The notes below the pieces were generated by a model. That model saw nothing but the letters and a program-made list of their open reading frames with translations. It was not told the origin of the DNA and ran no database searches. A program made the position numbers and the translations under genes. A DNA stretch of 46,532 bases. Origin: a virus. Positions 13,198 through 27,260 of the stretch are shown here, piece after piece. The stretch is from positions 1 to 46,532 of IMG/VR virus record IMGVR_UViG_3300025645_000012; one strand, 5' to 3'. Position 1 is the stretch's first letter. Each line of letters starts with the position of its first letter.

Positions 13198-13226
13198 ATA
13201 TTATACGCTCTTGACGATGTTGTCAA
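13198..13226 (-). promoter_or_regulatory. Promoter with operator-like repeat inside the 3' end of the primase gene
   Basis: On the minus strand TTGACA (13226-13221) is followed by TATAAT at 15 bases (13205-13200) or TAATAT at 17 bases (13203-13198). The repeat TTGAC-N6-GTCAA covers 13211-13226. It drives the operon from 13145 to 11309 and lies within the last codons of the primase gene. Confidence 0.7.
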
Positions 13227-15594
13227 CACTTGTCGAACTAGCGAGTGGATCACCTTGTGCCGCCGCGTAACATCGTGATATTTCCGCGCCGTTCGTTAAG
13301 TTAGCGTGAATGTGTCCCGCTTTGATATATAGTCTTGGTTTACCCGCTTCGATAGCGATGACGTTATTAACACGACCGTCTTTCAAACCTGGGTGATAGT
13401 CGTAACCAATTGAGCGCATCAACTCGCGACGTTTATTTCTTGGTACTTGACCACCTTTACGCATGTCATCAATGAGTCGGTCCAATGCGAACGAAGATAC
13501 CCAACCACCGCTAAACCCTGTACGACCTTCGTCAATCGCTTCGATAACTTCCTGTTCGACGCTACCCATACCCACACTAACAGCCTCTGCCGTGCTGGTG
13601 GTCTCTGGCGCCCGTTGACATTGTGTCGTCGGGTTCAGTTCGTCAGGTATCGCGTACTCGGTAAGATAGTGCGCAACATGAGCATAACCGCCAGCGTTTA
13701 ACCATGCGTACAGTGATGGGAAGTAATCGCCGGTCATACCGTCACGGATCAGGTCGATTGACTCTTGCTGTGCCGTATAAAACACACAGTAGCGTCGGTC
13801 GTTAAGTGTCTTTTTAACCGCGTCTTTGTGGTTCGAGTTGAGCAGGAAATTACAGCACACGTCGCGGGTAATTTGGTCGACGCCTTTGAATTGGATTTCA
13901 AGACCGTCACCACCAGTGATCATCGGCTTTAACGTTTCGAGAATTTCGCGACGATTATCGGGTACGTAGATATCCTCGACACCAATGAATAATTTGTTAA
14001 GTAACCAGCCGTTGAACTCACTGTCGATTTTACTAGCCTTGGGAAAATGTGTATAACGCTTACCGAGCGCATAAGCGACACAACGAGTGAACAGTGTTTT
14101 ACCGTTACCCTCACAACCTTGTAATAGTGGTGCCCATTGGATTTTATAACCCTTGTGCTGAACGCACGCCGCCATGTAAGCGAGTAATATTTGTCGGTCA
14201 CCCTCATGTGGTAAAACTTTTTTAAGGTGCGTCAGGAACGGGCCGACGTCACCGGGTTCGGAATGTACTTCGATATCAACGTAAGTGTTAACATAACGTC
14301 GACCTTCTTCGGTAACAATCGCGCCGGGTTTGATAGCTGGACGAAAACAAAACCCGTCAGCTTTTGGATTGTGTAAACACTGTGACTCGGTGAAGGCTTC
14401 CCACGCTTTTTTCGTTGTCTTCTCACCGTCGTTATCGATAACAAACGAATAACCACCGTACATCGCGTTAAATTGTTCTGATTTTAATAACGCCCCATTC
14501 GGTGTGAAAATACGGTTTAACTCTGCAACATATACACAACCGGCGAATATCTCGGTTTGTTGTGATGCGCTGACAAGTTGATACCCTTCACGAAATACCG
14601 GTACGATGATTTCGGACGTGTCGACCAGTTCAACAGGTTTACCGATATTGTAAAATGACGTCTGTCTCGAACATGCATTCGTAACGGTACGTTCAATATA
14701 CGACTTGTGATAGTCCCATTTATCACGCGCTAACCCACTGCGACGCATTAAGCGCTCGATACGTTCACAGTTGTTACCCGTCCAAAACGCTAAATGTTGA
14801 GCTAGTGCGGCGTCGGCGCTCGACGCGTCAAACTCCCGAACATCGTCAGGGTAATTAGCGGATAATACCTCGACGTTACGGTGCCATAAATCAGCGAAAC
14901 ACGTTTTAACGTTCTCACCGCCGAACATTTGCCCCGCTGTTGGTTTACCTGTTGACTTTAACGCTTTTTCAATCAGCTTATCGTCACTATCAACAGGGTT
15001 AGAATCTTCAACGTGTGTCGTCGTCCATTCTTGCGTGACACGTTCACTCGACGTAACAGGGAAGTATTGAGGGATAATGGCGTTTAACGACGCGGTATGA
15101 TCTGCCGACACTGTGCCAGTGATACCCGTACCCGTCAACGCCACGAAGCGACTCGATGTGTACAGTTCTAAATGTAGCGGTATATTTTTACAACCGTGTT
15201 CGGGTTCAACGCCACTGTACTGACCGAATATGTGTAATCCCGTTCCACTGTGTGACACTTCAATCGCAGCACCAGGGAACGCGTTACATAGTTGAGTCGC
15301 AAGCGGTGACCAGTTCGCACCGTCGTATGCGCCGTCGATATCAACGAAGAAAAACGGATCATTATCGGTAAACACGAAACCCACGCCGTAATCGATACCC
15401 GACAACGACGCAACCGTGACGGCCGTATCAGCGTCGACCCAATATTTCGGATCATGCGCATCGACGATATTACCTTCAATATCACACGGGAATTTATCAA
15501 ATTTACCCGGACGACGCTTAGACGGTACGGCTTTCCAAAGTATAAACTGGCTAAACGCACGCATCGCTGCGAGCGCCTCTGGTAATTTTTCCAT
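13201..15594 (-). CDS. Bifunctional primase-helicase (PrimPol + SF3-like DUF5906)
   Basis: A 797-aa replication protein. The N-terminal prim-pol domain shows VDIDG (84-88), SHSGTGLHI (114-122) and ELYTSSRFVALTG (143-155), the metal, nucleotide and basic motifs of AEP primases. The C-terminal SF3-type helicase shows Walker A GCEGNGKT (493-500), Walker B LFIGVED (535-541) and the sensor region NFLLNSNHKDAVKK. It would prime and unwind phage DNA. ATG 15594 has GGAG upstream; a 12-codon ORF lies in the leader. The last gene of the minus-strand replication block. Confidence 0.9.
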   Translation of the reverse strand: MEKLPEALAAMRAFSQFILWKAVPSKRRPGKFDKFPCDIEGNIVDAHDPKYWVDADTAVTVASLSGIDYGVGFVFTDNDPFFFVDIDGAYDGANWSPLATQLCNAFPGAAIEVSHSGTGLHIFGQYSGVEPEHGCKNIPLHLELYTSSRFVALTGTGITGTVSADHTASLNAIIPQYFPVTSSERVTQEWTTTHVEDSNPVDSDDKLIEKALKSTGKPTAGQMFGGENVKTCFADLWHRNVEVLSANYPDDVREFDASSADAALAQHLAFWTGNNCERIERLMRRSGLARDKWDYHKSYIERTVTNACSRQTSFYNIGKPVELVDTSEIIVPVFREGYQLVSASQQTEIFAGCVYVAELNRIFTPNGALLKSEQFNAMYGGYSFVIDNDGEKTTKKAWEAFTESQCLHNPKADGFCFRPAIKPGAIVTEEGRRYVNTYVDIEVHSEPGDVGPFLTHLKKVLPHEGDRQILLAYMAACVQHKGYKIQWAPLLQGCEGNGKTLFTRCVAYALGKRYTHFPKASKIDSEFNGWLLNKLFIGVEDIYVPDNRREILETLKPMITGGDGLEIQFKGVDQITRDVCCNFLLNSNHKDAVKKTLNDRRYCVFYTAQQESIDLIRDGMTGDYFPSLYAWLNAGGYAHVAHYLTEYAIPDELNPTTQCQRAPETTSTAEAVSVGMGSVEQEVIEAIDEGRTGFSGGWVSSFALDRLIDDMRKGGQVPRNKRRELMRSIGYDYHPGLKDGRVNNVIAIEAGKPRLYIKAGHIHANLTNGAEISRCYAAAQGDPLASSTSVDNIVKSV

Positions 15595-16015: not shown

Positions 16016-16201
16016 TTATGCCGCTGTCGTCAATACATTAGAACTCACAACGACACGCAACTCGCCACAATTCCACATCTTAATTGAACCCGCTTCGCTA
16101 TCTGGCTCACCGAAATATACCGACGGATCACCGTCACATTCGACAGACTCACCAACCGGAAGTATCGACCCGTTGTGAAAAATAGTTACGTGATGGGTCA
16201 T
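16016..16201 (-). CDS. Small soluble protein (61 aa), unknown
   Basis: Starts in an ATGA overlap with the PP-loop gene stop, so it is operon-linked. The product MTHHVTIFHNGSILPVGESVECDGD...WNCGELRVVVSS is beta-rich with two Cys and a hydrophobic C-terminus (SSNVLTTAA). No family recognised. It may be a small partner of the PP-loop enzyme. Confidence 0.6.
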   Translation of the reverse strand: MTHHVTIFHNGSILPVGESVECDGDPSVYFGEPDSEAGSIKMWNCGELRVVVSSNVLTTAA

Positions 16202-17121
16202 AATGGTTTTTCACCCGTTAGAATTACAGAACCGTCGTAAATAACTAAATCGATGTTCGATTCTATTGGCGAGCCAAGATAGGGGATCATAGCTCGCTGT
16301 ATTTGAAACGATTCACCATCTGGTAATGTTAACCACGGGTTCGGGTTACGAACCAAGAATGGGATATTAACAACGTCATTAATCAATGGGTGTGGTACAT
16401 CAGTGAACTTAATTTCACAAAAACTACCGCAGTCGGGCATGATAACCTCTAGATCGCGCCCTCGCTCAGGGTCTAAATCTTTCAGGTATACCCCGTTGAT
16501 ACAAGACGCTCCGATATCTTCTTCTGCGTCAACCATCTGTTGAAATATGTCTGGAAAATCGACTCGTATTTTATTCCAGTAGCCCATACCGCCTTTTACG
16601 CAACCTTTACAATTGTTATTCGGATAACCAAGAGAATACATCGCCGGTCGCTTAATACCGTTACTTTCTAAATAGTGTAAACAAGCTGGTTTGTCCATAC
16701 CTCTTTCGATAAGTGGAAATATCGCCAACGCATCGGGATATTGATCCTGAAAACGTAACGCTCGGTTGATTTCTTTCAATGTATACTCGAAACCAAAACA
16801 TTGACCGTCGTAGTCCGTCTCTCTTTCTATTTTTAAACGTACGTTCTTTTTTAATTCAGTTGTACAACGCGCCCCACCTGGTCCGTTAATCCATCTCACG
16901 TCTTCGATCACATCAAATTGATCTTTATACTTAGGCGACCCAGCGACTTCGATTTCTTTACCGTACCATTGTTCACACTCTCGCTTGAACCTGTCGTTGT
17001 CCTCGTGTGCCGTTCCAATCTTAAAATAAATCAAACGCACATTATCGGCTCCGTAAGTTTCAATTAAGAACTTACACGCCACAGCACTAGTTACGCCAGC
17101 ACTCCACCACCCTATGTACAT
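16198..17121 (-). CDS. PP-loop enzyme of the PAPS reductase / DndC-like superfamily
   Basis: A 307-aa protein. The PP-loop is GWWSAGVTSAVA (residues 4-15), a phage-type variant of SGGxDS. RCTTELKK (85-92) corresponds to the Cys-Thr-x2-Lys site of DndC/PAPS-reductase-like proteins, and NNNCKGCVKGGMGYW (168-182) adds a C-x2-C pair. Such enzymes activate a substrate with ATP, as in sulfur transfer, PAPS reduction or base modification. The C-terminal 80 residues are an extra beta-rich part. ATG 17121 has GAGG. The substrate cannot be read from sequence; DNA or tRNA modification and nucleotide-sulfate metabolism are all possible. Confidence 0.75.
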   Translation of the reverse strand: MYIGWWSAGVTSAVACKFLIETYGADNVRLIYFKIGTAHEDNDRFKRECEQWYGKEIEVAGSPKYKDQFDVIEDVRWINGPGGARCTTELKKNVRLKIERETDYDGQCFGFEYTLKEINRALRFQDQYPDALAIFPLIERGMDKPACLHYLESNGIKRPAMYSLGYPNNNCKGCVKGGMGYWNKIRVDFPDIFQQMVDAEEDIGASCINGVYLKDLDPERGRDLEVIMPDCGSFCEIKFTDVPHPLINDVVNIPFLVRNPNPWLTLPDGESFQIQRAMIPYLGSPIESNIDLVIYDGSVILTGEKPL

Positions 17122-17162: not shown

Positions 17163-17648
17163 TCATAGCGAACCTTCGCAAGTGACAAAACACGCATCGC
17201 CACCTAGCCCGACGACCAATTCCATGAATCGCAACTGTGCACCCTCACGGTCTGGATCTTCACCGAACGACCAATCTCCTTTTTTACATTCGCGCGCTAC
17301 GAACTGACCGATAGTCGAACCGACCATTTCACCAGTGATTAACACAGGTTTAATACCGATTAAATCAGACGACTTTAACTGCTGGTTCATCTGCTTTGTC
17401 GTATTACACAAACCGTAACGTATTAGTCGCCCTCGTTCGTCTTTACAAGCGCCGACATTATTGCGCCACAATCTAGCACCGACACGCGACGCCTCAAGTG
17501 TGACATTATTAACGACCGCCGCTTCACTAATCCCCGTTATGATCCGCGACGGGTCGGTATTGGGCTCGGTAAACATCGCTTGTAACTCAGCAAGCGCGAC
17601 ATGCGACACACCGTGACGGATCGCCCATTGTGTTATGTTGTGGTTCAT
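17163..17648 (-). CDS. VRR-NUC domain nuclease
   Basis: A 161-aa protein. After an N-terminal helical part, residues about 56-161 show the VRR-NUC (PD-D/ExK-type) pattern: ASRVGARLWRNNVGACKDERGR, SSDLIGIKPVLI with the metal Asp, FVARECKKGDW with the E-x-K pair, and REGAQLRFMELVVGLGGDACFV. Phage members of this family are single-domain endonucleases associated with helicases, probably acting on branched DNA. ATG 17648 overlaps the helicase stop (TGATG); GTG 17651 is a weaker option. Confidence 0.85.
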   Translation of the reverse strand: MNHNITQWAIRHGVSHVALAELQAMFTEPNTDPSRIITGISEAAVVNNVTLEASRVGARLWRNNVGACKDERGRLIRYGLCNTTKQMNQQLKSSDLIGIKPVLITGEMVGSTIGQFVARECKKGDWSFGEDPDREGAQLRFMELVVGLGGDACFVTCEGSL

Positions 17649-20600
17649 CACTCAATACTCCCAATATCATTTGCAACACGTTCACCGAGCGTCAACGCTG
17701 CGTCGGCGTCTAGCGCTTGTGCGCTCAACCAATCCACGCCGTAACGCAAGTAAAACCGTCTAAATATTTCCGAGTCGTCTCGACCCGCTGCGCGATGGTG
17801 CCCACCCAGTAAAGCCATTACCTCACGTAACGCACCGATTGCGGTTTGTTGTTTTTCGAATTTAGCAGCAAACCGTTTAGCATGTGCCATTACGCCAATC
17901 GTCGGTGTGTGACGTCGCATTAAATCGGCGCGATACTCTGCGATTGCTTCGTCCATTGGTCGGTCAACTTTCGCCACTTCGCCGCGCATTTTAGCGAGTG
18001 TTTCCTCGTCGAGTTCGTACAAATCGCCGTCGACAAATTCCGGTCCGCTTCGTTCCGTTGGTGTTGGTGGTTGTATCTCAAGTCCACAAAACGGACATAC
18101 TTTTAAAAAGCGTTCAAACGCCGAATAACAACCCTGTGCCGTAACGACACCGTTGACTTTATGATCGACACACGCCCGAATAGGTGTGATATCACCGTCA
18201 ACACCGCCGCGTTTTTCACGTCGTTCAAGCGACCATTCGCGTTTAGCATCGGGCAAACCGTGGCGAGTGACGTTACCCGCATGGTCTGAATAAATACCGT
18301 ATTTCTTACCGTCCATTAATCGAAGCATACGCCCGAACCGTTGACAAAATAAACCGTACGATTGTGTCGGGTAAGCGTCCTGAACAACTTCGATAGCTGG
18401 AAGGTCGAAGCCCTCGTCGAATAGAGCGACGTTAATTAACACTAGTAATTCACGGCGTGCGAATTTACGTATCGAACTGACTCGAACCTCGTCGGGCGTA
18501 TTACCGTTCAGTGATTTAGCGGGTACACCCGACTCGATAAACTGTCGTTCTAGTTCCTCGGCCGACGTCACGCTCGGTACGAACACGACGGATAGCATGT
18601 TTTTAAATTTGTCATGATACGTTTGGACCACGTCACCGACGACACGGTTTGACTTCTCGTCCACTTCCACCAGTGAAGAATGTTCAACAGCGTCGCGAAC
18701 CTGGTTGATGTTATAATCACCGGTTGAAGCGCTAATTTTAACCGCACCCATTCGATTCGATAAATCACTCGGTGGTGCGAAAATGCGATATTCAGTCAAA
18801 AATTTGTTATCGATTAACCAACGCATAGTCGGCCCGATAACCATCGAATGAAATACACCGTCGTTATCAGCACCAAGACCCGCACCGTCGGCACGACATG
18901 GCGTGGCGGTCACACCTAGACCTTTAGCGTTGATAAACAAATCGGTCGCTTTCATCCATTTGTTACGCTTACCGCCATTCGCCCCGAGGTGATGCGCTTC
19001 ATCAGTAACCCACAATGTGACATTAGGTGCCCAACGACGAATAGAGTCGGACATGTCTTTCGGTGGTCGCTTACCTTGTAACGCGCCGTGCGGGTGTGCG
19101 TCCACCTTAACAGGTTGACCCCACGAACCGTTACGTTTTGGTCCGTACAACCACTTGATACCGTTTGGTGCGTCTTGAACGTACATGTCACCGTCGACAC
19201 CAGTTCCACACCATGACATAACCGTATCGACACCAGCTACGGCGGCGCGAGCATTAGGATCATAAAATGACGTCCCAACCTCAACCATGTGCATTTGTAC
19301 AATGGAACGGATCAACTTGTTCGGTCCAATGATACGATGACGCACACCATTACGAGCAAACGCGATAGATATTTGCGAAACGAGTTCTTGACGGTGCGCG
19401 ATAGTACAAGACGAACCGACATGGTCTTTCACTATAGCCGACAATACCCTGGTATTGTGAGTAACTGTGAAGTCCCCCAGCATAAACAGATGATCACCAT
19501 CTATTTCAAAACCATAATAGTCATCGACACCTATCGGTTCGACTTTCAAACCCGTGACTAACACTGATTTTTTCTGTTTTCTAGGTTTAAAATCATTACG
19601 AACCAGTTTGGTGGGTATACAAGTAAAGTCCCCGCTGATACTCACACGGTAGTAATCCCCCGTCACACCGTTGTTAGTACAGATTTTACGGCACGGTTTG
19701 ATATACGCAGCGAACCCCAGTGATCGAGCCACGTACGCTAAGTCACTAGCTAACACTTCTAACTTGAACACCGCGTCATAGCTTTTACCATCGTAATGAC
19801 CGTCGCTATCTAGTAAGCCCGCCAATAATTCCAGTCGTTGACGTCTTGAACCCGTTTTATAAATTAACGGGACGTGCTTGTTATGTAATAACCCTAGTGA
19901 ACGTAAAGACCGATGCATGCTGTTAGGTTTATGGCTGTTACTTATACCGTAGTTCGACGAAGCGTTATCGATCATGTCCTTTTTATTGACATTGAAGCCA
20001 CGGGATTTAGCGTAGTCGTTAATATAATCGACAATCTCTTTATCAGCAGTAGTGATGGTCGAACTTTTAGAATATCCGTCACCCAACCATAGACCCAACA
20101 TGTAAGGCGGTAGGTTTTCATCGTGTTTTTTATCGTCCCACTCAACGCCACTGCGCCAACCTTTATGCGTGTGTTTGAACGTTTTAGACGACTTAATATA
20201 ATCGAGAACAGGTATATTAACGATGTCACCCTTACCGTTGTGACAAGGGTATTTAGGATTAGATTTAATACCTGTCTGTTTGAGGCTCAATATGTGACTT
20301 TCATTAACAACATAACTGTCACCTTTGGTTGGTGTGACACGGTACATCATTTCGCGACCTCTGGCGATAGTTAACACTCTGCGATGGGTGCTATCAGGAC
20401 CCATTAATAGATCGCCAGTTTTCACTTGTTCGACGGGTAATATAGAACCGTCGAACATTAGTACACCTGTTCCTTTAGCCAGGCATTTACCCGCGCCGGT
20501 TGGCATCACAGCCAACACGTTACGATGACCTGAACACCATTCGTTTTGAATATCGTTATAAAGTTTTAATTGGTAATCCCGTAACCCAGTATCGGAACAT

Positions 20601-20653
20601 ACCGTTTTGACCGCGTACGCCACTTGTGACAATACGGGTATGTGATTAATCAT
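17648..20653 (-). CDS. SF2 DEAH-type helicase containing an intein
   Basis: The 1001-aa precursor is a 657-aa extein plus a 344-aa intein (residues 57-400). Extein motifs: Walker A PTGAGK|T split by the intein, DEAH at 551-554, TATP at 582-585, GFDLP at 748-752 and QRFGRMLR at 771-778, as in UvsW/RAD25-like SF2 helicases. A zinc ribbon-like CPFCG near residue 860 and a helical C-terminal domain follow. It probably unwinds replication or recombination intermediates together with the VRR-NUC next to it. Without protein splicing the ATP site is interrupted, so helicase activity depends on the intein. Confidence 0.92.
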   Translation of the reverse strand: MINHIPVLSQVAYAVKTVCSDTGLRDYQLKLYNDIQNEWCSGHRNVLAVMPTGAGKCLAKGTGVLMFDGSILPVEQVKTGDLLMGPDSTHRRVLTIARGREMMYRVTPTKGDSYVVNESHILSLKQTGIKSNPKYPCHNGKGDIVNIPVLDYIKSSKTFKHTHKGWRSGVEWDDKKHDENLPPYMLGLWLGDGYSKSSTITTADKEIVDYINDYAKSRGFNVNKKDMIDNASSNYGISNSHKPNSMHRSLRSLGLLHNKHVPLIYKTGSRRQRLELLAGLLDSDGHYDGKSYDAVFKLEVLASDLAYVARSLGFAAYIKPCRKICTNNGVTGDYYRVSISGDFTCIPTKLVRNDFKPRKQKKSVLVTGLKVEPIGVDDYYGFEIDGDHLFMLGDFTVTHNTRVLSAIVKDHVGSSCTIAHRQELVSQISIAFARNGVRHRIIGPNKLIRSIVQMHMVEVGTSFYDPNARAAVAGVDTVMSWCGTGVDGDMYVQDAPNGIKWLYGPKRNGSWGQPVKVDAHPHGALQGKRPPKDMSDSIRRWAPNVTLWVTDEAHHLGANGGKRNKWMKATDLFINAKGLGVTATPCRADGAGLGADNDGVFHSMVIGPTMRWLIDNKFLTEYRIFAPPSDLSNRMGAVKISASTGDYNINQVRDAVEHSSLVEVDEKSNRVVGDVVQTYHDKFKNMLSVVFVPSVTSAEELERQFIESGVPAKSLNGNTPDEVRVSSIRKFARRELLVLINVALFDEGFDLPAIEVVQDAYPTQSYGLFCQRFGRMLRLMDGKKYGIYSDHAGNVTRHGLPDAKREWSLERREKRGGVDGDITPIRACVDHKVNGVVTAQGCYSAFERFLKVCPFCGLEIQPPTPTERSGPEFVDGDLYELDEETLAKMRGEVAKVDRPMDEAIAEYRADLMRRHTPTIGVMAHAKRFAAKFEKQQTAIGALREVMALLGGHHRAAGRDDSEIFRRFYLRYGVDWLSAQALDADAALTLGERVANDIGSIE
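19454..20485 (-). mobile_element. Intein with LAGLIDADG homing endonuclease domain
   Basis: The 344-aa intein begins at Cys57 (CLAKGTGVLMFDGS, block A) and ends in FTVTHN (block G, terminal His-Asn) before the +1 Thr. Block B is seen in ESHILSLK; block F in GFEIDGDHLFMLGDF. Two dodecapeptides, PPYMLGLWLGDG (intein 126-137) and LLAGLLDSDGHY (220-231), with acidic residues, show a LAGLIDADG endonuclease. Insertion is between Lys and Thr of Walker A, a known hot spot in P-loop proteins. All splicing residues are intact, so it is probably active. Confidence 0.95.
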
Positions 20654-23982: not shown

Positions 23983-24393
23983 ATGATTAATAATCAACTA
24001 AATAACGCGGCGTTACCTGTATTATTTGAGCGTTTCACACAATGGCACCACGACCGCAATCTAATCGACGGTACGACAAGTCAGGTTCAATTTAAAAAAC
24101 TACTCGAAGAAGTTATCGAGCTTTACATGGCGTTATACCCAGGCGTTACACCAGACATAGCGACCATGCAAATAATACAGATGACATTAGGTTTAAATAG
24201 TGCCGGACGTATTAAAACGTGTGACGGTTCCGGTTTACCTGATGCCATAGGTGACATTAACGTCGTGCTTGACAATATCGCAGAACGTGAAGGTTATACA
24301 ATGGCGTCGTGTCTGTCGAGCGCGTATGATGACATTAAGGACCGTAAAGGTCAGATGATTGATGGTACGTTCGTCAAGGAGTCAGATTTATGA
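23983..24393 (+). CDS. MazG-like nucleotide pyrophosphohydrolase
   Basis: A 136-aa all-alpha protein with the MazG/all-alpha NTP-PPase arrangement: FTQWHHDRNLI, FKKLLEEVIELYMAL (E-x2-E-type metal site, residues about 44-52) and GLPDAIGDINVVLDNIAEREG (D-x3-D site, about 81-90), then a helical end with KDRKGQMIDGTFVKESDL. Phage MazG-like enzymes hydrolyse (d)NTPs or ppGpp-like signals. GGAG lies ten bases before the ATG. Its stop overlaps the polymerase start (ATGA). Confidence 0.8.
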   Translation: MINNQLNNAALPVLFERFTQWHHDRNLIDGTTSQVQFKKLLEEVIELYMALYPGVTPDIATMQIIQMTLGLNSAGRIKTCDGSGLPDAIGDINVVLDNIAEREGYTMASCLSSAYDDIKDRKGQMIDGTFVKESDL

Positions 24394-25916
24394 AATACTT
24401 GTCAAAATGTGACGAGCTGAACGGATGCGGTAAGACGTTCCCCGGTGATATGTCACACTGTCCACATTGCGGAACACCCGAACAGTTTTCGACACAAGCG
24501 TTCGTTAACCCTCGTGACTATGCTTACGATGAAGAAACTTATCCTAATTGTTTCACCGCTCGGTTTATTCACATTGCTACCGACACACGTTGGAAGTTTG
24601 AGATCTCCGAATTTGTCGACAACTCGGATGAACTAATCGCGTTCGTAATGCAACTTAAAGCGTGTAACGCTCGTGGCGTTGGTTACAACAACGTCGGGTT
24701 CGATTACCCAGTATTACATTACATCGTCCAAAACCACATTAACGACCCTCGTCTAATTTACGACTTCGCAATGGTGTTAATCAAAGGGACCAAAGACGAA
24801 AAGTTCGCGCGCCAAGTGTGGGACAGCGACCGCCTATTCGAACAGTTAGATTTATACAAAATTAAACACTTCGACAATGTGGCACGTGCTACGAGTTTGA
24901 AGTCACTCGAAATTGCCATGCGCATGGATAACATCGAAGATTTACCGTTCCCCGTCGGCACCGTTCTCACTCGTGACGAAATTGAAGTATTGCACACATA
25001 TAACGAACACGACGTTATAGCCACGATATTGTTTTACGTTCGTTGCATTCCTGAGATTGAATTTCGAGAAGTATTGACCGATCGTTACGGTCGTAATTTT
25101 ATGAACCATAACGACACTAAAATTGGTAAAGATTACTTCATTATGAAACTCGAAGATAGTGGTGTCGAATGCTTCGAAAAAACGCCATCTGGACGAGTGC
25201 CACGTCAAACGATACGTCCGTCTATTAAGTTAGGGGACGTGATATTCCCTTATGTGAAATTAGAACATCCCGAGTTTAAACGTATACACAAGGAATTAGC
25301 ATCTAAAACAATAACCGAGACTAAAGGGTCGATCAAAGACCTGAAGTGTATTGTCGACGGTATCAGCTATAAATTCGGCACCGGTGGCCTGCACGCTTCG
25401 GATGATTGCAAGATATTTAGAAGTGATGACGAAATGTCGATCGAAATGCGAGACGTAATATCATACTACCCGTCAATGGCGATAGTTAACAACTTACGAC
25501 CGCTACATCTAGGGGAAAATTTCCCATTGATTTACGGTGACATGTTCAAACAGCGCCGTTCATATCCTAAAGGAACACCGGAAAACGCAATGTTAAAATT
25601 AGCATTGAACGGTACTTACGGGGACTCTAACAATGTGTATTCACCGTTCTACGACCCTGTTTTTACAATGGCGATAACATTGAACGGTCAGCTTTTATTG
25701 TGCATGTTGGTTGAACAGTTAATTAAGACACCAAACCTACGCATGATTAACGTCAACACTGACGGCGTGGGGTTCATATATCCGCGTAAATACAGATCGC
25801 ACGTAGATGCTGTGTGTGCGTGGTGGGAAAAATTAACAGCGTTGGGGCTTGAAACCGAAGAATATTCGATGTTTGCTCAACGGGACTGTAATAATTACAT
25901 CGGTGTTGAGGCTTAA
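24390..25916 (+). CDS. Family B DNA polymerase, N-terminal part (split gene)
   Basis: 508 aa. A short zinc ribbon (C7...C13, C24-x2-C27), then the 3'-5' exonuclease: Exo I YDEETYPNCF (D47, E49), Exo II YNNVGFDYP (about 100-107), Exo III YNEHD (204-208). Polymerase motif A DVISYYPS (D355), motif B KLALNGTYG (403-411), motif C NTDGVGF (D458). The frame stops at 25914 after NNYIGVEA, where a family B enzyme would continue to its thumb. The rest is encoded at 26655-27260. A GIY-YIG gene fills the gap. The two products must associate, or the phage relies on another polymerase. Confidence 0.9.
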   Translation: MKYLSKCDELNGCGKTFPGDMSHCPHCGTPEQFSTQAFVNPRDYAYDEETYPNCFTARFIHIATDTRWKFEISEFVDNSDELIAFVMQLKACNARGVGYNNVGFDYPVLHYIVQNHINDPRLIYDFAMVLIKGTKDEKFARQVWDSDRLFEQLDLYKIKHFDNVARATSLKSLEIAMRMDNIEDLPFPVGTVLTRDEIEVLHTYNEHDVIATILFYVRCIPEIEFREVLTDRYGRNFMNHNDTKIGKDYFIMKLEDSGVECFEKTPSGRVPRQTIRPSIKLGDVIFPYVKLEHPEFKRIHKELASKTITETKGSIKDLKCIVDGISYKFGTGGLHASDDCKIFRSDDEMSIEMRDVISYYPSMAIVNNLRPLHLGENFPLIYGDMFKQRRSYPKGTPENAMLKLALNGTYGDSNNVYSPFYDPVFTMAITLNGQLLLCMLVEQLIKTPNLRMINVNTDGVGFIYPRKYRSHVDAVCAWWEKLTALGLETEEYSMFAQRDCNNYIGVEA

Positions 25917-25918
25917 TC

Positions 25919-26674
25919 ATGACCGTGGGTATTTATGCAATTATAAACAATGTGGACGGCAAGTGTTATGTTGGTAAATCTATCAATGTAGAGAGACGGA
26001 TTACACATCATAAATACCACCTTAGAAAATCCGAACGGTCGGTTAAACAAACTAACAGACATTTATTCAACGCAGTTAAAAAACACGGTATCGATAATTT
26101 CACTTTCGCCGTGATAGAAGATTTTGACAAAATAGACGAAGATTTAATTTCGGAACGTGAGTTATTCTGGATGTTACATTTCAAATCTACCGAAAGAGAC
26201 CATGGGTATAATTTGAGAGCTGATTCGTCCACTCGAATGATTGTTCACGATGATACACGCGAAAAGATTTCGCAGAATAATAGAGGCATTAATAACCCTA
26301 ACTACGGTAATAGATGGGATGACCGAAAGAAACTTCACATGTCTGAATTAAAATCCAAACAACATCGTAAGGGTGTCTACGGTGACGAGTGGAAATCTAA
26401 AATATCTACAAAATCGTCTGAGTTTTGGAGTAATAACCCAGACGTTAAAAAGCAGATGGCAATTAAAGTTAAAGTCAAGAAACAAAAGTACAATTTCATT
26501 CAGATGGACGAAGGTTTGAACATTATAAAAGCGTGGCCTTCTGTAGAGTCAATTATAAATGAAAACCCCGATTGGAAATGGCAGAACATTTACTCTGTGT
26601 GTAATGGTCACAAGAAACGAATATACGGTTATAAATGGAAAAAGGTGTTGAAAGATGGGAAAAATAAAACGTAA
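25919..26674 (+). CDS. GIY-YIG homing endonuclease splitting the polymerase gene
   Basis: 251 aa, starting two bases after the polymerase N stop. The GIY-YIG domain has GIY (4-6), YVG (17-19), basic R26/R27 and the metal Glu in SERELFWM (about E81). A NUMOD3-type DNA-binding motif (NNRGINNPNYGNRW, about 116-130) and a C-terminal repeat resembling IENR1/NUMOD (AWPSVESIINENPDWKWQNIYSVCNGHKKRIYGYKWK) follow. Its 3' end overlaps the start of the polymerase C part by 20 bases. More AT-rich and Lys/Asn-rich than neighbours, as expected for a recent insertion. No room for an intron core. Confidence 0.92.
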   Translation: MTVGIYAIINNVDGKCYVGKSINVERRITHHKYHLRKSERSVKQTNRHLFNAVKKHGIDNFTFAVIEDFDKIDEDLISERELFWMLHFKSTERDHGYNLRADSSTRMIVHDDTREKISQNNRGINNPNYGNRWDDRKKLHMSELKSKQHRKGVYGDEWKSKISTKSSEFWSNNPDVKKQMAIKVKVKKQKYNFIQMDEGLNIIKAWPSVESIINENPDWKWQNIYSVCNGHKKRIYGYKWKKVLKDGKNKT

Positions 26675-27260
26675 AGGTGCATACGAATACAATGTACAGT
26701 GGCACCAGGATTGTAGCGCGCTCGTCGTTGCTAAAGCGGCCGAGGCGGCGCTCGTACGTGGTGAGGATATACGAACGTTCATTATGAACCATGCCGATAA
26801 TTACGACTTTATGTGTCGCGCCAAAGTACCGCGTTCGAATCGTCTCGTTATGCGTTGGCCAGAGTATGACGATACCGAAATCGAGATGAATAGTATTATT
26901 CGTTATTACGTGTCTAACCACGGTGGGTCACTCGTTAAGATTGCTCCACCAACGGGCGAGGTCGGAACGTGGAAACGTGCAGCGAAGGTCAGTGACACGT
27001 TATATTCACAGGTGCTTGCTGAGTTGGACATGTGGGACTTATCGCCTAACATGGATGCGGCTGGGATACCACACGACGAACGTATTCACACGAAGAACAA
27101 GTCGAAACATGACAAGCGTGAAATGGGTATCTGTGTCGGCTGGCGTGTAACTGACTGTTCGAACGTGGGGAACTTCGACCGCTCAACAGTGAATTACGAC
27201 TATTACGTCGAACAAGCTGAAAAACTCGTTAAACCACTCTTGACGGACGTGTCAAAGTAG
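26655..27260 (+). CDS. Family B DNA polymerase, C-terminal part (split gene)
   Basis: 201 aa. Starts MGKIKRKGAYEYNVQWHQDCSALVVAKAAEAALVRG, which is how the region just after motif C continues in full-length phage family B polymerases (thumb side). ATG 26655 lies inside the endonuclease gene with AAGGTG ten bases upstream. With the N part it makes 709 residues, a normal size. Near the C-terminus AAGIPHDERIHTKNKSKHDKRE carries the RIH motif seen in the repeat protein at 20990. Alone it has no catalytic residue. Confidence 0.85.
   Translation: MGKIKRKGAYEYNVQWHQDCSALVVAKAAEAALVRGEDIRTFIMNHADNYDFMCRAKVPRSNRLVMRWPEYDDTEIEMNSIIRYYVSNHGGSLVKIAPPTGEVGTWKRAAKVSDTLYSQVLAELDMWDLSPNMDAAGIPHDERIHTKNKSKHDKREMGICVGWRVTDCSNVGNFDRSTVNYDYYVEQAEKLVKPLLTDVSK

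Follow-up and report, generated by a model that had tools for sequence, protein, structure and literature searches.

A metagenomic virus carries a family B DNA polymerase gene divided by a freestanding GIY-YIG homing endonuclease gene at a recurrently interrupted site

In the DNA analysed here, the 46,532-base IMG/VR record IMGVR_UViG_3300025645_000012 (the window), a family B DNA polymerase is spread over two genes with an endonuclease gene between them. This raises the question of whether the two parts are rejoined at the RNA or protein level, whether the polymerase is decaying, or whether both parts work together as separate polypeptides. We favour the last answer. With a probability that we put at about 0.88, a freestanding GIY-YIG gene has inserted without an intron or intein at a hairpin turn of the polymerase, the halves probably form a two-subunit enzyme, and the insert spreads by homing.

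All features of the locus lie on the plus strand. The N-terminal polymerase cistron polN (508 aa) occupies 24390..25916, the endonuclease gene (251 aa) 25919..26674 and the C-terminal cistron polC (201 aa) 26655..27260. These are exactly the coordinates of the original prediction, which had also noted that the endonuclease ORF starts 2 bases past the polN stop and overlaps the polC ORF by 20 bases. PolN comprises an N-terminal zinc ribbon (CxxxxxCGK..CPHCG), a 3'-5' exonuclease and the palm and fingers with motif A (D355-VISYYP, 25452..25472), motif B (KLALNGTYG, residues 403-411, 25596..25622) and motif C (NTDG, residues 456-459, 25755..25766). D355, S358, Y360 and P361 of motif A, K403-N407 and G411 of motif B and the whole of motif C are invariant in our alignment A2. 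The profile of PHROG 1252, 'DNA polymerase', matches polN over its positions 23-507 (E = 1.5e-151) and polC over positions 511-653 (E = 2.8e-31), so the two are collinear halves of one protein, as had been predicted. PolC also matches PHROG 15833 (E = 1.1e-60), and the Pfam family PF10108 scores 23 bits against polN, just short of its cut-off of 24. The identity as a family B polymerase of PHROG 1252 is borne out by motifs A, B and C and by the PolB fold. A second complete polymerase, the presence of which had been raised as a counter-argument, is absent from the 46,532-base record, which has one polymerase place only.

Alignment to intact polymerases, a check proposed beforehand, located the insertion point. 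Edwardsiella phage MSW-3 and most of the surveyed relatives encode the polymerase in one ORF, and the last polN codon and the first polC codon are adjacent in these intact genes. The junction (25911..26657) consists of the last polN codon, the stop, the endonuclease gene and the first polC codon; it aligns with zero gaps, 0 residues being gained or lost relative to most intact relatives. The break comes after polN residue 508, about 50 residues past motif C and not just after it, as first stated. PolN ends in NNYIGVEA and the stop, while polC opens with the second hairpin strand (GKIKRKGAYEY) and runs on into the thumb side; the thumb-side continuation indeed starts at 26655, within the 3' end of the endonuclease gene. 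In an HMM alignment based on a profile of 45 sequences, the split place aligns with the stretch KKYAVIDEEGKITTRG of KOD-type archaeal PolB. For the closest intact relative (L014, 724 aa), an AlphaFold model with a mean pLDDT of 90.9 places strands at 507-512 and 517-520 and the split at 513/514, in the hairpin turn; a Foldseek search with this model retrieves archaeal PolB and pol alpha (prob 1.00, E = 2e-14, TM about 0.45). According to the model, the cut falls after motif C, in the turn of a KKRY-type beta-hairpin located between palm and thumb.

The position of the junction also bears on the idea that a split intein joins the halves post-translationally. Such a 'fractured gene', with a freestanding endonuclease between the intein halves, has been reported for the PolB of phage MIJ3 (PMC6892783). 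In the window, however, the end of polN and the start of polC both correspond to residues of the intact enzyme, and neither has an additional stretch in which an intein half could lie; Pfam detected no Hint domain in any of the three ORFs, although it found one in the helicase of the window. The lack of intein sequence at both junctions refutes this reading, to which we assign practically no weight.

The intervening gene was rightly recognised as that of a GIY-YIG homing endonuclease. Its product passes the Pfam cut-offs for GIY-YIG and NUMOD3 as well as the NCBIfam cut-off for TIGR01453, and it resembles the catalytic domain of I-TevI (1ln0/1mk0, E = 1e-6). Both the catalytic residues and the DNA-binding modules of such enzymes are present: GIY (4-6), YVG (17-19), the Arg region ERRI (25-28), the catalytic Glu in SERELFW (78-84), GYN (96-98), NUMOD3 at residues 112-132 and an HTH-like C-terminus with GYKWKKV. 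A single-sequence fold reached a pLDDT of 35 only and was set aside.

The helicase gene mentioned above (17648-20653, minus strand, 1001 aa) has its Walker A motif interrupted by an intein that contains a LAGLIDADG endonuclease (boundaries, marked by slashes, MPTGAGK/CLAKGTG...FTVTHN/TRVLSA; domains Hom_end_hint, Hom_end and LAGLIDADG_3). The window thus contains two homing elements of different types in two replication genes. Also on the minus strand, opposite to the split polymerase, a primase gene (13201-15594) with an NrS-1-type helix-bundle domain and DUF5906 (PHROG 1829) lies beside a second replication module, and a phosphoadenosine phosphosulfate reductase-like gene (16198-17121, PHROG 424) may serve in auxiliary metabolism or DNA modification.

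Splicing would be another way to restore the polymerase, if the insert were a group I intron filled by the endonuclease ORF. In NCBIfam the endonuclease family bears the name 'group I intron endonuclease', a relative in Flavobacterium phage FpV21 lies in a group I intron of the same gene at motif A, and phage ICP1 splices genes interrupted by homing endonuclease genes (PMC10448857). Nevertheless, an Rfam search of the 951-base junction gave no match to Intron_gpI up to E = 10, nor at the gathering threshold, and a P3-P7 catalytic core was not found. An equally small search detected the FpV21 insert as RF00028 (E = 2.9e-10, slightly short of the gathering score), together with its 3' part (0.0032). 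Since this control succeeded only with the search confined to about 1 kb, negative results for whole loci are weak evidence; seven other split loci were also negative at this less sensitive setting, and Rfam can miss very divergent introns. The non-coding room amounts to 2 bases on the 5' side and an overlap on the 3' side. Moreover, polC has gained a start codon and a Shine-Dalgarno-like site, which are needless for a spliced exon. We therefore regard an intron as improbable, and the earlier claim that there is no intron core held at a sensitivity that detects the intron of a related endonuclease.

The FpV21 endonuclease is 34% identical to that of the window and is located in a related polymerase gene, but it lies in a group I intron at motif A, whereas the window's is freestanding at the hairpin turn. 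In FpV21 (L176, 4029-4981) the intron splits motif A as DV/AGYYPS, and the GenBank annotation lists two 'putative DNA polymerase' genes and a hypothetical protein only.

The start of polC was compared across split and intact genes. Its first codon is ATG or GTG in 26 of 26 split genes, while the same codon in 104 intact genes specifies Asp, Gly, Ser, Asn or Lys and is never a start codon. The anti-Shine-Dalgarno energy upstream of polC has a median of -7.3 kcal/mol in the splits versus -1.9 kcal/mol in the 104 intact genes (p = 4e-13, which is optimistic because related rows are not independent). A Shine-Dalgarno-like site is found in nearly all splits and is absent from intact genes. The site in the window, aaaaaggtgttgaaag (26638..26654, within the 3' end of the endonuclease gene), is modest, with an anti-SD duplex of -4.4 kcal/mol. 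One split locus, L076, lacks such a site and has a 20-base overlap as in the window, which in both cases would suit re-initiation. RNA folding around the polC start revealed nothing unusual (z = 0.72). Compared with relatives, dN/dS is about 0.06-0.1 in both halves (about 0.1 for polC), which indicates purifying selection on each of them; to judge from the sequences, both parts are kept by selection and separately translatable.

This purifying selection, together with the integrity of all polymerase motifs, speaks against a polymerase that has been inactivated and is decaying. The contig is metagenomic, and the split might for that reason be attributed to an assembly error, but the same arrangement occurs in two other metagenome contigs, with endonucleases 90% and 67% identical to the window's, and the split site recurs in cultured phages. 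Decay or misassembly is hence very improbable.

The insert appears to have a history of its own. Between the window and its nearest relative, IMG/VR 3300019762_000036, rough NG86 values of dS are 2.27 and 2.05, that is saturated, for the polymerase halves and 0.37 for the endonuclease gene, and third-position identity is 0.82 for the endonuclease versus 0.52 and 0.49 for the halves (p below 1e-12). The far lower dS indicates that the endonuclease gene moved between these phages long after their polymerases diverged, recently and separately from the flanking sequence. The tract of raised identity (25905..26692; about 0.9, vs about 0.8 upstream and 0.65-0.8 downstream) reaches from about 10 bases before the polN stop to about 35 bases into polC, so that the moved unit would include a few polN and about 12 polC codons. 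In three split/intact pairs with otherwise nearly identical polymerases, divergence clusters beside the junction, over about 60 bases 5' and 120 bases 3' in L117/L122, about 600 bases 5' and at most 60 bases 3' in PVN06/PEi21, and about 60 bases 5' and 240 bases 3' in L076/L090. This footprint is co-conversion-like, of the kind that homing leaves when exon flanks are co-converted.

The halves could be separate polypeptides and the endonuclease still be a passenger that replaced another endonuclease in an older split. Several endonuclease families occupy the one split site on very similar polymerases of Jedunavirus, from which it follows that replacement happens. On the other hand, a single endonuclease lineage is shared by the three members of the window clade, and the closest outgroups are intact. 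We consider a passenger unlikely here, though a good deal less so than splicing.

For the favoured two-subunit reading we propose the following course of events. A freestanding GIY-YIG homing endonuclease gene would enter the family B polymerase gene at the KKRY-type hairpin turn, the inserted sequence itself supplying the polN stop, the endonuclease ORF and then the ribosome-binding site and start codon of polC. PolC would probably be translated by re-initiation over the 20-base overlap, and the 508-aa and 201-aa halves most likely come together as a working two-subunit polymerase. The target of the endonuclease is most likely the uninterrupted allele of a co-infecting phage, into which repair after cleavage would copy the endonuclease gene and short exon flanks.

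What the original prediction overlooked is that many phages with available sequences have their polymerase split here, by endonucleases of several families; the event in the window is thus not an isolated one. We surveyed 189 loci with about 140 distinct polymerases. Every intron-less interruption by a homing endonuclease gene alone falls at one place, residues 503-511 of MSW-3, and the sole other interruption is the group I intron in motif A of FpV21. The split phages include Edwardsiella phage PVN06, many Klebsiella Jedunavirus and IMG/VR contigs. Their endonucleases form four groups with no mutual similarity by BLASTP: GIY-YIG/NUMOD3 (the window, its two IMG/VR sisters, KpTRp1, L034 and L117), HNH_3, in some cases with AP2 (PVN06, L036, L055-57, BUCT_49532 and others), T5orf172/MUG113 with zinc modules (JD001, KpV79, FZ14, JustaPhage and others), and an orphan Cys-rich protein in L076 that looks HNH-like by eye and has no Pfam match. 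Among the best 60 GenBank matches to an intact Jedunavirus-type polymerase, 29 are in two pieces, some being RefSeq duplicates.

Split and intact rows alternate in a 112-row 'quick' tree, with 7 changes, all forced by well supported branches. A careful 59-row tree has 8 state changes between split and intact (bootstrap 7-8), and a single origin of the split occurs in 0 of 200 bootstrap trees. The changes may be new insertions, homing of the split allele or losses, among which the tree does not distinguish. We rejected the view that the splits are fully separate insertions, as a split allele can be handed on by homing and one endonuclease can take the place of another at an existing split. A scan of GTDB genomes gave one distant match only and nothing on host or prophage state.

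It seems somewhat more probable than the contrary that the KKRY-hairpin turn is a general safe landing site for at least four unrelated endonuclease families, that the split outlasts decay of the endonuclease, and that two-subunit PolB is stable and recurring. The endonuclease gene would be hard to lose because the ribosome-binding site and the start of the second polymerase half lie in it. Persistence of the split after endonuclease decay would be exemplified by two Klebsiella phages, RCIP0033 and RCIP0093. The zinc-repeat T5orf172 endonuclease is broken into two ORFs in RCIP0033 (L185) and reduced to 164 aa through loss of repeats in RCIP0093 (L183); the polymerase halves are open in both. 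The number of zinc repeats in the split-site endonuclease differs among Jedunavirus. In PVN06 (L002, 1895-4597) both polymerase halves are present; the genome paper states that no DNA polymerase is encoded (PMC8465730).

Arrangements of this kind are already known. A review covers mobE in nrdA, mobA in gene 60 and seg43 with the split gene 43; activity has been demonstrated for split NrdA and split gp43, and the Aeh1 ribonucleotide reductase works as two polypeptides (PMC2988022). HNH genes are linked with split DNA polymerase genes in Vequintavirinae (PMC8472413), and homing endonuclease genes near or within essential phage genes have been surveyed (PMC10448857). In nrdA/mobE of Aeromonas phage Aeh1 and gene 60/mobA of T4, a freestanding endonuclease likewise splits an essential gene into two cistrons, but the genes are others, the endonucleases are of the Mob type and not GIY-YIG, and these are single cases rather than many families at one site. 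Closer is the split gene 43 with seg43 of Aeromonas phage 25 (and 44RR), also a two-cistron family B polymerase with a freestanding GIY-YIG (Seg-type) gene. The halves from phage 25 reportedly co-purify with polymerase activity. In 44RR, gene 43 is said to be split by an untranslated intercistronic stretch, so the endonuclease may have come later; in contrast, the window's endonuclease abuts or overlaps both halves and many relatives have an empty site. Gene 43 encodes a T4-type polymerase and the window one of PHROG 1252. The prediction of an event separate from those in Aeromonas T4-like phages is supported. JD001, KpV79, FZ14, BUCT_49532, KpTRp1 and PVN06 (Jedunavirus, Yokohamavirus) share the polymerase family, the identical split site and, in GenBank, the annotation as separate ORFs, though mostly with other endonuclease families (T5orf172/MUG113, HNH_3). 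In the open-access literature we found no paper describing these polymerases as split and no description of convergence at this polymerase hairpin. The new part is the intron-less convergence of four families on one hairpin turn.

Overall, the locus belongs to a replicated natural experiment on breaking an essential polymerase, in which the same gene is cut at the same turn in several lineages by several nucleases, with close intact controls. It makes testable whether homing endonucleases pick such sites for their conserved target DNA, for structural tolerance or for both reasons, how a nuclease that is freestanding and lacks an intron spares its host gene, and whether the split turns irreversible. 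A natural point at which family B polymerases can be split is identified as well, and annotation errors like the published claim about PVN06 are explained. If the turn is indeed a safe landing site, two-subunit PolB would be a stable and recurring natural state and not a one-off.
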